Source: Candidatus Methylarchaceae archaeon HK02M2 (GTDB taxonomy: Archaea > Thermoproteota > Nitrososphaeria > Nitrososphaerales > JACAEJ01). Taken from it: a DNA stretch of 39,638 bases. The first letter of the stretch is position 1; each line of letters opens with the position of its first letter. A program made the translations under genes and the position numbers. Shown in pieces: positions 1,868-37,785 of the stretch. A model generated the notes under the pieces. That model saw only the letters and a list, made by a program, of their open reading frames with translations, was not told the DNA's origin and did not search any database. Location of the stretch: NCBI GenBank assembly GCA_024256165.1, contig JAKLZG010000068.1, positions 1-39,638 on the forward strand, given 5' to 3'.

Positions 1868-3163
1868 ATGGCTGTAATAGAAGATGTAGTATGCCCGATA
1901 TGTGGATGCGTATGTGATGATATTATCGTTACAGTTGAGGACAATAAAATAAAGAAAGTAAAAAATTCATGTTCAATCTCAGCTACTAAATTCTTAAACT
2001 TCCATAAACATAGGCTCCCATCACCTTTGATAAAGAAAGATGGAGATCAGATTCCTATTAGCCTAGAAGAAGCAGTAGAAAAGGTTGCCAAAATCTTAGT
2101 AAATGCAGAATACCCAGCTATTTACGGTTTGGCCTTGTCGAGTTGTGAAGCTCAAGGTTTAGGCGTAGAGTTAGCCGAAGAAATCGGTGGGGTCATCGAT
2201 AATCAAACCGTAACATGCCACGGTCCTACTGCCTTAGGCTTACACGATGTAGGAATGCCTACTTGCACTCTTGGAGAAGTCAGACATAGGGCCGATTTGA
2301 TCGTATACTGGGGATGCAACCCTGAAGAAGCTCATCCGAGACATCTAAAAAGATACAGCGTTTTATCAAAGGGAAGGTTTAGAAAAGAAAGAGAGGAGAG
2401 GAAGATGGTGATCATAGACGTAAGGAAGACAAAAAGTACTAAACAAGCAGATCTTTTCTTACAGATTGAACCTGGTCAGGACTTTGAACTTATGTCTGCA
2501 TTACGTGTGATTTTAAACTTTGATGAGATCGAGGAAGAAAGCGTTGCTGGCTTGCCGATAGAGAAAGTCGAAGAATTTGCTGAATTATTGAGAAACTGTG
2601 AATTCGGGATCATATTCTTTGGACTAGGTCTCACTATGAGTCGAGGAAAGGAACGAAACATAGATGCAGCTGTTTCCTTAGTTCGTGATCTGAATAAATG
2701 GGCAAAATTCAGTATAATTCCTATGAGAGGACATTATAACGTAACTGGTATGAATGAAGTAACTGCTTGGCAGACAGGCTATGCTTATGCTGTAGATTTA
2801 AGCCATGGTTATCCATGGTATAACCCTGGAGAGACCTCATTTGTGGATATTTTACGAAGAGGGGAGTGTGATGCAGCACTTATAATCGCTTCTGACCCCG
2901 TTGCACATTTCCCAAAAGAAATAGCTCGAAACTTATGTAAAATACCTTTTGCTGTCATAGACCCCCATCCATCTATTAGCTCTCTTCTTGCAGATATTGT
3001 GATACCCTCCGCTTTTACAGGGATAGAAGCTGAAGGTTCAGCCTATAGAATGGATGCTGTTCCTTTGCGACTCAAAAAGGTCCTTGAGCCTCCACCAGGG
3101 ATATACTCTGATGAAGAGATAATAAGTATGATATTGGAAAAGATAAGATCTATGAGGGGGTGA
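1868..3163 (+). CDS. fwdB: Formylmethanofuran dehydrogenase subunit B (catalytic, Mo/W)
   Basis: The catalytic subunit (431 residues) of formylmethanofuran dehydrogenase, holding a bis-molybdopterin metal centre and a [4Fe-4S] cluster. The N-terminus has the cluster motif CPICGCVCDD (Cys9, Cys12, Cys16) with a further Cys35. TVTCHGPTALG places Cys117 where the family has its Mo/W-ligating cysteine (or selenocysteine); here it is an ordinary TGC codon. Later motifs such as VYWGCNPEEAHPRH and AEGSAYRMDAVPLR fit the molybdopterin oxidoreductase fold. It sits between fwdD and fwdA (5 bases to fwdA), and its stop overlaps the likely ribosome binding site of fwdA. Mo versus W use cannot be told from sequence. 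Confidence 0.95.
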   Translation: MAVIEDVVCPICGCVCDDIIVTVEDNKIKKVKNSCSISATKFLNFHKHRLPSPLIKKDGDQIPISLEEAVEKVAKILVNAEYPAIYGLALSSCEAQGLGVELAEEIGGVIDNQTVTCHGPTALGLHDVGMPTCTLGEVRHRADLIVYWGCNPEEAHPRHLKRYSVLSKGRFRKEREERKMVIIDVRKTKSTKQADLFLQIEPGQDFELMSALRVILNFDEIEEESVAGLPIEKVEEFAELLRNCEFGIIFFGLGLTMSRGKERNIDAAVSLVRDLNKWAKFSIIPMRGHYNVTGMNEVTAWQTGYAYAVDLSHGYPWYNPGETSFVDILRRGECDAALIIASDPVAHFPKEIARNLCKIPFAVIDPHPSISSLLADIVIPSAFTGIEAEGSAYRMDAVPLRLKKVLEPPPGIYSDEEIISMILEKIRSMRG

Positions 3164-3168
3164 TATAA

Positions 3169-4890
3169 ATGGAATTATTAATAAAAAATGGAGTAGTTTA
3201 CGATCCTATTAATAAGATCGATGGAGAAGTTATGGACATCGCTATTAAAGATAATAAGATAGTGGATATGGTCGATGAATCAAAGGCATACATGATAGAT
3301 GCATCGAATAAGCTTGTAATGGCCGGAGGAGTTGATGTGCATACTCATATAGCAGGACCAAAGATGAATACCGGAAGAATACTGCGTCCGGAAGATCACT
3401 ATGGGGATGTCGCACCCAAGACTCAAATAAAGCGTTCAGGAGGAGGTTATTCAACCCCATCAAGCTTTGTAATGGGATACAGATACGCTGAGATGGGCTA
3501 CACTACTGCTATAGAACCTGCAAATTCACCCATAAAGATGTTGCATTGCCATCATGAATTCAGAGATATACCTATTCTCGATAAATCTTGTTTCGTACTC
3601 TTCGGAAATAATTGGTTTGTCTGGGAGTATTTGATGGAAAACAAACTTGATGAATGCGCAGCTTATGTCGCTTGGGTTCTTAATGCGACAAAGGGTTATG
3701 CAATAAAGATTGTAGACCCAGGAGCTGTTGAGGCTTGGAAATGGGGAGATGTGGAGTTTCTGGACATATTGTGGGGTAGACCACAAACAATGGATCAACA
3801 AGTCCCACGCTTTGGAATAACGTCTAGAGATATAATAAGAGGCTTATGTAAGGTAAATAAGCTCCTAAATCTGCCTCATCCAATACATGTCCATCCAAAT
3901 GGTCTAGGTACACCTGGTAATTATCAGACAACAATAGAAACAATGGACTGTGTGAAGGATCTCGCTGATGGAGACAAGCCAATAATTCATATGACTCACG
4001 TTCAATTCAATGGATATGGTGGCTCAGACTGGGTAAATTTCAGATCTGGTGCCTATGAAATAATGAAGTATGTTAATGCCAATAAACATGTATCTATGGA
4101 TCTAGGACAAGTTATTTTCACTAATACAACTACGATGACAGGTGATGGACCTTTCGAGTATCGACTTTATCGACTTACCAAAAATAAATGGACAAATGCT
4201 GATGTAGAAGTTGAGTCTGGCGCAGGTATTGTACCAATGCACTATAAAAGGAATAACTTCGTCCATGCAGTAATGTGGGCAATCGGTTTGGAATTAGCTT
4301 TATTTGCTAAAGATCCTTGGAGAGTCTTCATTACAACAGATCATCCAAATGGCGGGCCTTTCACCAACTATCCAAAATTACTATCTTGGCTGATGAGTAA
4401 AGAAGCTAGGCAAAGGATTATTAACAAAATCCCAAAAAGAGCAAAATCCAAAACTAACTTAGAAAGTATGGATCGTGAATATTCATTTTACGAGATAGCT
4501 ACAACGACTAGGGCAGCAACCGCCAAGATACTAGGATTGAAGGATAAAGGACATCTTGGAGTCGGTGCAGATGCAGATATCTCCATATATGATATGGATC
4601 CTAAAGAGATAAATCCATCGAAGGATTACAAACAATTACGAAAAGCCTTCAGTAAGGCCATGTTTACCATCAAAGAAGGAGAAATAGTAGTAAAGGACGG
4701 AGAGACCGTCAAATCTATCGATGGAAGGGTATACTGGGTCAAGCCTAATGTACCTAGCGATCTAATGAATGCGATGGAGAGCGAATTGGCTGGTAAGTTT
4801 GATGACTACTATACGGTGTCGATGCAGAACTTTAAGATACCTGAAAGATACATTATGAGATCTACACCCATAGCCGCACACTACGGATAA
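3169..4890 (+). CDS. fwdA: Formylmethanofuran dehydrogenase subunit A (amidohydrolase-like)
   Basis: A 573-residue subunit of the amidohydrolase superfamily. In the characterised methanogen enzyme it condenses formate, made by FwdB and passed through an internal tunnel, with methanofuran. The binuclear metal site is visible: HTH (His58, His60), a lysine in GYAIKIVDPG (Lys180, the likely carboxylated lysine), HPNGLGTPGNYQTT, THVQFNGYGG and the aspartate in TTDHPNGGPFTNYP. The ATG at 3169 is preceded by GGGGGTGAT, a good ribosome binding site overlapping the end of fwdB. The family partner fwdC does not follow; the next gene is convergent. A strong hairpin lies just after the stop. Confidence 0.95.
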   Translation: MELLIKNGVVYDPINKIDGEVMDIAIKDNKIVDMVDESKAYMIDASNKLVMAGGVDVHTHIAGPKMNTGRILRPEDHYGDVAPKTQIKRSGGGYSTPSSFVMGYRYAEMGYTTAIEPANSPIKMLHCHHEFRDIPILDKSCFVLFGNNWFVWEYLMENKLDECAAYVAWVLNATKGYAIKIVDPGAVEAWKWGDVEFLDILWGRPQTMDQQVPRFGITSRDIIRGLCKVNKLLNLPHPIHVHPNGLGTPGNYQTTIETMDCVKDLADGDKPIIHMTHVQFNGYGGSDWVNFRSGAYEIMKYVNANKHVSMDLGQVIFTNTTTMTGDGPFEYRLYRLTKNKWTNADVEVESGAGIVPMHYKRNNFVHAVMWAIGLELALFAKDPWRVFITTDHPNGGPFTNYPKLLSWLMSKEARQRIINKIPKRAKSKTNLESMDREYSFYEIATTTRAATAKILGLKDKGHLGVGADADISIYDMDPKEINPSKDYKQLRKAFSKAMFTIKEGEIVVKDGETVKSIDGRVYWVKPNVPSDLMNAMESELAGKFDDYYTVSMQNFKIPERYIMRSTPIAAHYG

Positions 4891-15626: not shown

Positions 15627-16469
15627 GTGAAAGATAGGTTGGTCGTAAAGATTGGATTTGTAAAAATAGGCAATATAGGTTCTGCACCTATGATCGAACT
15701 ACTACTTGATGAGAGAGCAGAGAGAGAGGATATTGATGTACGAGTTATAACTACTGGCGCAAAGATGGATGTTGAACAAGCGATAGAAATCACCAAAAAT
15801 ATGGTTGACTACAAACCAGACTTTGTTGTTTCAACTAGCCCAAATGCTGCTCTTCCAGGTCCAGGTAAAATTCGAGAAGTGCTAAAAGAAGCAGGGATTC
15901 CCGCAATAATCATTTCAGATAGTCCTGCTAAAAAAGCGACAAAAGAGATAGAAGAATTGGGTCAAGGATATATGATAGTTTTGGCCGATTCGATGATTGG
16001 TGCCAGGAGAGAGTTCTTAGACCCTATTGAGATGGCTCTATTCAATGCGGACCTAATAAAAATATTGTCAGTAACAGGGGTCTTCAATATTCTATGTTCA
16101 GAGATGGACAAGATTATAGATGCTTATAAGAAGGGCGAGACACCCAATTTACCAAAGATGATAATAGACAAAGATATAGCAATATCAGCTTCTGGGCTTC
16201 AAAATCCTTATGCAAAAGTGAAGGCTATGGCTGCATACGAGATAGCTAGAAGAGTTGCTGATTTAAGCGTTGAAGGATGCTTTATGGTGAAAGAATGGGA
16301 AAGGTACACCGCACTAGTCGCTGCTTCCCATGAGATGATGCGTACTGCTGCATTATTAGCTGATGAAGCACGCGAGATTGAAAAGAATAATGATAGTGTT
16401 CTTCGTATGCCTCACTATGATGATGGGACGATAATGCAGAAAAGGAAGTTAATCGAGAAGCCAAAATAG
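15627..16469 (+). CDS. mtd: F420-dependent methylene-H4MPT dehydrogenase
   Basis: A 280-residue protein of the Mtd family, which interconverts methenyl- and methylene-H4MPT using coenzyme F420. The N-terminus VVKIGFVKIGNIGSAPMIEL and the following LLDERAEREDIDVRVITTGAKM are highly characteristic. FVVSTSPNAALPGPGKIRE, IIISDSPAKKAT and YMIVLADSMIGARREFLDP continue the match. Usual family length is about 275-285. The start is GTG at 15627; a TTG five codons in is an alternative. A palindrome overlaps its promoter, and a large hairpin follows downstream. It has no distant relative with another function, so confidence is high. Confidence 0.95.
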   Translation: MKDRLVVKIGFVKIGNIGSAPMIELLLDERAEREDIDVRVITTGAKMDVEQAIEITKNMVDYKPDFVVSTSPNAALPGPGKIREVLKEAGIPAIIISDSPAKKATKEIEELGQGYMIVLADSMIGARREFLDPIEMALFNADLIKILSVTGVFNILCSEMDKIIDAYKKGETPNLPKMIIDKDIAISASGLQNPYAKVKAMAAYEIARRVADLSVEGCFMVKEWERYTALVAASHEMMRTAALLADEAREIEKNNDSVLRMPHYDDGTIMQKRKLIEKPK

Positions 16470-37585: not shown

Positions 37586-37744
37586 TCCCGCGGGCAGGAC
37601 ATTCAGGTTAATTGCACCTTTTGAACCTGCGACACTCCGGTTTCTGTGTGCTCAGTAGGCTGGTGAAGTGAACCATGGCTCACCTCTACAGCATCTCCCC
37701 CTCACATGAGGGTCGGAAGCTCTACCAAGCTGAGCTACCGCGGG
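37586..37744 (-). tRNA. tRNA-Tyr (GTA) with three introns
   Basis: On the minus strand CCCGCGG (37744-37738) and CCGCGGG (37593-37587) form the acceptor stem, with discriminator A at 37586 and no encoded CCA. The D-arm is GCTC/GAGC around AGCTTGGTA. Anticodon-stem bases TCCG (37717-37714) are separated from G (37692) by about 21 bases (intron 1, with a CCCTC/GAGGG hairpin). GTA (37689-37687) is the anticodon, followed by G37. About 44 bases (37685-37642, intron 2) precede A38 and CCGGA. The T-stem GCAGG/CCTGC encloses 27 instead of 7 bases (intron 3, 20 bases). The spliced length is 74, and C1-G72 with A73 is typical of archaeal tRNA-Tyr. Confidence 0.85.
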
Positions 37745-37770: not shown

Positions 37771-37785
37771 AAATAAATATTTATC
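37771..37785 (-). promoter_or_regulatory. TATA box of the tRNA-Tyr gene
   Basis: On the minus strand GATAAATATTTATTT lies about 30-40 bases before the tRNA 5' end, the usual place for an archaeal box A. A run of four T (37581-37584 region) after the tRNA 3' end would stop transcription. Confidence 0.5.

Follow-up and report, generated by a model that had tools for sequence, protein, structure and literature searches.

Archaeal tRNA genes with several introns have been described from Thermoproteales and, with tRNAscan-SE 2.0, from Thaumarchaeota (PMC8450103); their bulge-helix-bulge (BHB) introns lie at canonical and noncanonical sites, number at most three per gene, and go together with a two-subunit EndA. 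The permuted tRNA-Tyr(GUA) and tRNA-iMet of Thermofilum pendens are broken at position 59/60 of the T-loop with a BHB, and a canonical intron is present in addition (PMC3218864). Two further systems concern modification of the anticodon region. The intron of archaeal pre-tRNA-Trp contains a box C/D guide for a modification in the anticodon region of its own tRNA (references in PMC6313347), and the Sulfolobales H/ACA guide Sso1 directs the formation of pseudouridine 35 (Ψ35) in tRNA-Tyr, with a 5-nt 3' guide strand and an ACA about 15 nt away (PMC4652768).

The window analyzed here, that is, the whole stretch of 39,638 nt, contains a tRNA-Tyr(GUA) gene with three introns. As such, the gene is another case of an already known type, found here in an apparently Nitrososphaeria-like clade whose other members reach four and five predicted introns. 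Its T-loop intron lies at the site of the break in Thermofilum pendens, where the gene halves are swapped; in the present locus the gene is linear and the intron an ordinary one. The 37/38 intron carries a conserved element that can be compared with both guide systems. Whereas the tRNA-Trp intron guides box C/D 2'-O-methylation, the motif found here resembles H/ACA, points to Ψ35 and takes the D-loop as one strand of a stem, and its function has not been shown. The element shares the proposed target U35, the 5-nt 3' guide and the ACA distance with Sso1; however, Sso1 is a separate trans RNA with a full pocket and a '10/5/9' fold, whereas the intron element acts, if at all, in cis and has neither a K-turn nor a 5' guide.

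By direct reading, the gene runs from position 37744 to 37586 on the minus strand, as do its parts and the upstream element given below (159 nt; CCA is not encoded), and its four exons and three introns alternate with lengths of 31, 21, 7, 44, 22, 20 and 14 nt. Exon 1 (37714-37744) covers tRNA positions 1-30, with the acceptor 5' strand, the D arm and the 5' part of the anticodon stem; exon 2 (37686-37692, GCUGUAG) covers positions 31-37 including the anticodon GUA; exon 3 (37620-37641) covers positions 38-59, with the anticodon stem 3' strand, the variable region, the T-stem 5' strand and UUCAAA; and exon 4 (37586-37599) covers positions 60-73. An AT-rich TATA-like element approximately 27-40 nt upstream of the tRNA 5' end (37771-37784), recognized by inspection only, was found in relatives too. 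The spliced RNA, the 74-mer CCCGCGGUAGCUCAGCUUGGUAGAGCUUCCGGCUGUAGACCGGAGUGUCGCAGGUUCAAAUCCUGCCCGCGGGA, forms a perfect cloverleaf in which every stem is paired throughout, with the Levitt pair G15-C48 and with the C1-G72 pair and A73 of archaeal tyrosine identity, and ARAGORN called it as tRNA-Tyr(gta). No tRNA was called by ARAGORN on the unspliced gene or by ARAGORN and Rfam over the window, lax thresholds included; the unspliced region folded 4.1 sd better than its shuffles.

No second tRNA-Tyr was found by Rfam, pattern or covariance model search in the draft assembly (91 contigs, 96% complete). The covariance model R1, built on tRNA-Tyr precursors, gave the gene 144 bits and the runner-up in the genome, a tRNA-Phe, 65.6 bits; since the rows of R1 include, besides relatives, the gene itself, a high score for this gene is built in, and it is the gap to the next match that counts. 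Rfam reported 32 tRNAs in the genome, with the tRNA-Tyr gene not among them, so that common annotation tools miss the only tRNA-Tyr gene detected. Being the single tRNA-Tyr in the assembly, the gene is likely to be functional and apparently single-copy, and its charging with tyrosine and use in translation are inferred on the same ground. The tRNA-Phe(GAA) gene of the genome (L235, G000:C91:37179-37267) has a D-loop intron and was also missed by ARAGORN, and other tRNAs are probably hidden by introns too, given the small Rfam count. Misnaming is a further trap: a 'tRNA-Tyr(gta)' call by ARAGORN elsewhere (L024) was rejected by inspection as a class II tRNA-Leu with an intron.

Intron 1 (37693-37713; 21 nt, ACCCTCATGTGAGGGGGAGAT) interrupts the anticodon stem at 30/31, a position kept in 7/7 genomes of the family with a varying loop; its BHB, drawn by inspection, is relaxed, with a hairpin CCCUC/GAGGG and a central helix UUCC/GGAG. 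Intron 2 (37642-37685; 44 nt) lies at 37/38 within another relaxed BHB, in which the central helix CUGU(32-35)/ACAG, kept in most genes, is accompanied by a 3-nt bulge on the 3' side. Intron 3 (37600-37619; 20 nt, AGGTGCAATTAACCTGAATG) lies at 59/60 in a canonical 3-4-3 BHB composed of the outer helix GCAGG/CCUGC, the bulge AA|A, the helix UUCA/UGAA, the bulge UG|U and the inner helix GGU/ACC. Among the 50 related genes with a T-loop intron described below, the 4-bp BHB helix was fully paired in 18 (shuffled introns: mean 2.1, maximum 8); in family f8 (approximately 16 genes), 58/59 is seemingly used instead, with a helix GCUC/GAGC that was read by eye.

The original prediction had placed introns of these three lengths at 30/31, at 37/38 and in the T-loop, which proved right almost to the base and agrees with the uninterrupted T-loop of relatives; the 74-base product with anticodon GTA and C1-G72/A73 was recovered as predicted, and the warning that tRNA finders may miss the gene holds for the unspliced form with both ARAGORN and Rfam. 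It had also named two outcomes that would refute it, an intact second tRNA-Tyr(GTA) gene combined with a lack of evidence for splicing at this locus, or a spliced sequence that fails to score as a tRNA; the searches described above detected no second tRNA-Tyr gene in the assembly, and ARAGORN accepted the spliced sequence. Its reservation that splice points were ambiguous by a few bases survives only at 37/38, which may shift by one base to 38/39 without changing the product, whereas the sequence and the comparison with relatives leave no such freedom at 30/31 and 59/60. Similarly, the difficulty of drawing a BHB at every site persists for 30/31 and 37/38, where only relaxed forms were drawn, but not for the textbook motif in the T-loop.

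The genome encodes RtcB and two EndA paralogues of 208 aa and 181 aa; by inspection, one paralogue has apparent Tyr/His/Lys catalytic residues and the other lacks the His. The two paralogues fit the two-subunit enzyme with which relaxed splice sites have been associated (PMC4090602; PMC6379350). The introns at 30/31, 37/38 and 59/60 would be removed from the precursor by a two-subunit EndA at BHB sites and the exon ends would be sealed by RtcB. Comparison establishes the gene structure; splicing itself is inferred from sequence, without RNA data.

R1 retrieved tRNA-Tyr precursors from nearly all genomes searched of the order and class, most genomes used being drafts, and 117 distinct tRNA-Tyr genes of related archaea were spliced computationally by dynamic programming. 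The 37/38 intron was present in all 117 and the T-loop intron in 50, and introns at 30/31 and in the D arm were frequent. Four introns were predicted in nine sequences (L084, L132-L134, L142-L145 and L147), most of them with one intron at the T-stem/T-loop border (approximately 53/54) and another at 59/60. Three more genomes had five predicted introns (L138, G017:C63:10026-10208; L149, G061; L151, G077), located at 8/9 or 9/10, at 22/23 or 30/31, and at 37/38, 53/54 and 59/60; in both groups, a standard mature tRNA-Tyr remains after removal. These predicted introns would exceed the maximum of three per archaeal tRNA gene stated in the open-access literature (PMC8450103). The expectation that three introns are uncommon, and a T-loop intron rarer still, therefore fails in this clade, in which tRNA-Tyr is an intron hot spot. 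In L142 and L145, a second CCCGCGGTA stretch lies directly upstream of the tRNA-Tyr, which may be a further intron or a partial duplication. No extra role is visible for the introns in the T-loop and at 30/31, which resemble ordinary BHB introns with recurrent gain or loss.

The 37/38 intron, in contrast, is not neutral filler; it contains a conserved element that the original prediction did not notice. In the present gene, G37 and the 5' part of intron 2 form a 9-bp hairpin (37665-37686) that overlaps the 5' splice site, shows compensating changes between genera and would be the upper stem of the guide fold proposed below. It is followed by CAGCC (37658-37662), which pairs with G30-G34 immediately 5' of U35, and by the 8-nt UACUGAGC (37650-37657), which pairs with positions 15-21 of the D-loop (strand GCUUGGUA, 37723-37730). 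An ACA (37645-37647), which in this gene overlaps the BHB partner ACAG, lies 15 nt downstream of the start of CAGCC.

A CAG-like triplet with an ACA 14-16 nt downstream was found in the 37/38 intron of 117/117 genes, and the distance was exactly 15 nt in 100 of the 108 distinct introns, against a mean of 0.9 and a maximum of 5 in shuffles. The distance from ACA to the 3' splice site is variable (6-24 nt), and the 15-nt spacing is retained in 22 of the 23 introns that lack the usual ACAG before the splice site. An additional nucleotide within the element is balanced by one fewer before the ACA, which preserves the 15 nt. Among 30 other tRNA genes of the genome, the pattern CAG-(14-16)-ACA occurred in one, within exon sequence.

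In the general form CAGNN, the 5-nt segment pairs with G30-G34 and stops beside U35. Between CAG and ACA, 7 or 8 of the D-loop 15-21 bases have partners in 116/117 genes, and the D-loop complementarity was complete in 145/152 genes. The pair at D-loop position 17 is C-G or U-A (one U-G), and that at position 20 is U-A, U-G, C-G or A-U. A first covariation test, with random D-loops and introns anchored on the splice site, was weak (30 of 2000 shuffles reached the value) because many introns were mis-anchored; re-anchoring on CAG...ACA, in which complementarity was not used, cured this. In 38 distinct composites, 98.9% of cells were paired, compared with 22-48% in slid controls; both-side changes numbered 19 versus 4.8 in shuffles (0/500) and occurred at three pairs, and pairing at 31-34 held in 100% of cells. 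The composites were made of picked segments, with the mis-anchored distant gene L268 and the class gene L089 excluded, so that these pair counts lean towards the structure, and related rows inflate the covariation counts, the independent changes being fewer than the cells. The CAG-ACA spacing test is independent of the choice of segments. The D-loop bases involved lie outside the cloverleaf stems; thus, stem constraint cannot explain the covariation. A local intron hairpin, GCCU/AGGC, was also considered as the cause of conservation and was rejected, since it is broken in 14 of 26 distinct elements whereas the D-loop helix retains 7 or 8 pairs.

Pairing between the intron and the D-loop persists outside the class (L248, L249, L265 and others), where a D-loop A20 is matched by an intron U; the distant L271, L274 and L280 have CAGCC or CGGCC and partial D-loop complementarity, with no ACA. 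Both predicted helices, CAGCC with G30-G34 and the intron with the D-loop, are supported by covariation and fixed spacing across the phylum. Our confidence is high for the gene with its three introns together with the conserved helix between intron and D-loop. No prior report of the intron element was found in the open-access literature, and a description in a subscription journal is not excluded.

We propose that the 37/38 intron, in this gene and across much of the phylum, is a cis-acting H/ACA-like guide for Ψ35, a reading to which we give an even chance; the function has not been shown and RNA data are lacking. In the unspliced precursor, the intron would fold onto the tRNA part: CAGCC would pair with G30-G34 and the 8 nt after it with the D-loop of the same molecule, so that U35 stays unpaired beside the helix, with ACA 15 nt downstream. 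CAGCC would position U35 and the D-loop would supply the lower stem; the ACA would recruit Cbf5, to which U35 is presented, and Ψ35 would be made before splicing. The intron would afterwards refold (CUGU/ACAG) and be spliced out. Two folds of the precursor without introns 1 and 3 were nearly equal in energy (-52.2 and -49.0 kcal/mol), which makes such a modify-then-splice switch possible. Cbf5 is present in the genome. TruD/Pus7 is absent in 7/7 genomes of the family (f1) and in several other families of the order, and present in the rest.

Archaeal H/ACA guides have 14-16 nt between pocket and ACA, a 3' guide strand of 5-6 nt and a lower stem of 7-9 bp (PMC4652768; PMC7991803 is cited beside it for the H/ACA interpretation). 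The element meets the first requirement when measured from the start of CAGCC, the second with a 3' guide strand that ends beside the target U, and the third with 8 bp, but one strand of this stem is the tRNA D-loop. A 5' guide strand is missing, as the target runs directly into the hairpin with no separate strand, and no conserved K-turn or K-loop for L7Ae was seen on inspection of the upper hairpins of several families, which are plain 8-9 bp stems. For lack of these two features, we do not class the element as an H/ACA RNA. The presence of TruD in many families that keep the element, the 2-7 nt linkers between hairpin and CAG in many species, and the missing ACA in L271, L274 and L280 also count against the guide reading. 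If true, a cis guide would explain why every sampled tRNA-Tyr gene of the class has the 37/38 intron whereas its other introns vary in occurrence; the intron would then possibly be a pseudouridine guide built into the precursor, a parallel on the H/ACA side to the box C/D guide of the tRNA-Trp intron. The strong and covarying constraint on D-loop pairing offers a concrete, testable reason for the retention of one tRNA intron over a whole class.

Both helices could instead serve as a folding or splicing chaperone that holds the precursor in a non-tRNA fold until the other introns or the ends have been processed, with the ACA spacing as a by-product. Such a fold is in competition with the D-stem as well as the BHB, in most genes the ACA falls within the BHB partner ACAG, and removal in a set order is needed in the many genes that have several introns. 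However, the 15 nt between CAG and ACA are maintained even in genes with the BHB partner at another place and in elements with an extra nucleotide, and the element is also kept in genes with a single intron; we regard a chaperone as possible, though on the unlikely side. It is doubtful that the intron acts after excision, as an H/ACA-like guide in trans that targets spliced tRNA-Tyr or other RNAs. The complementarity is to tRNA-Tyr itself, and separate trans guides for Ψ35 are known in Sulfolobales (PMC4652768; PMC6313347), but a D-loop strand as lower stem requires either cis action or a long trans duplex, and the 3' side of the target has no 5' guide strand to pair with.

Apart from the proposed cis guide, the status of the T-loop insert was examined in seven genomes of the same family, which represent three genera and all have an orthologue. 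All three introns recur in the other two genomes of the genus, whereas four genomes of two sister genera have the introns at 30/31 and 37/38 and an uninterrupted T-loop. The sister-genus sequence GCAGG-TTCAAAT-CCTGC is exactly the product predicted on removal of the 20-nt insert. Mature tRNA-Tyr differs at no more than two positions among the seven genomes, and the introns vary; the inner helix of the T-loop intron changes from GGU/ACC to GGGU/ACCC between species with its pairing kept. This natural comparison with and without the insert is the strongest evidence, at the sequence level, that the 20 nt are an intron. That the insert is instead a gene-inactivating insertion (a pseudogene or an assembly error), which the absence of RNA data and the 91-contig draft assembly leave formally conceivable, is very improbable and was rejected, given nearly invariant exons in the genome's only detected tRNA-Tyr gene, the comparison with relatives, an insert of the same position and length in three species, whose inner-helix changes preserve pairing, and the use of 59/60 in many families.

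The similarity of the T-loop introns of the genus to those of other families is no more than about that reached by the best shuffles, and gain in the genus versus loss in the sister genera remains unresolved. In one sister genus (g3; L038-L040), the 30/31 intron of tRNA-Phe closely resembles that of tRNA-Tyr, which suggests copying between tRNA genes. Elsewhere in the window (1868-4890 and 15627-16469), genes for formylmethanofuran dehydrogenase subunits A and B and for an F420-dependent methylene-H4MPT dehydrogenase were observed, indicating a C1 pathway in this archaeon.
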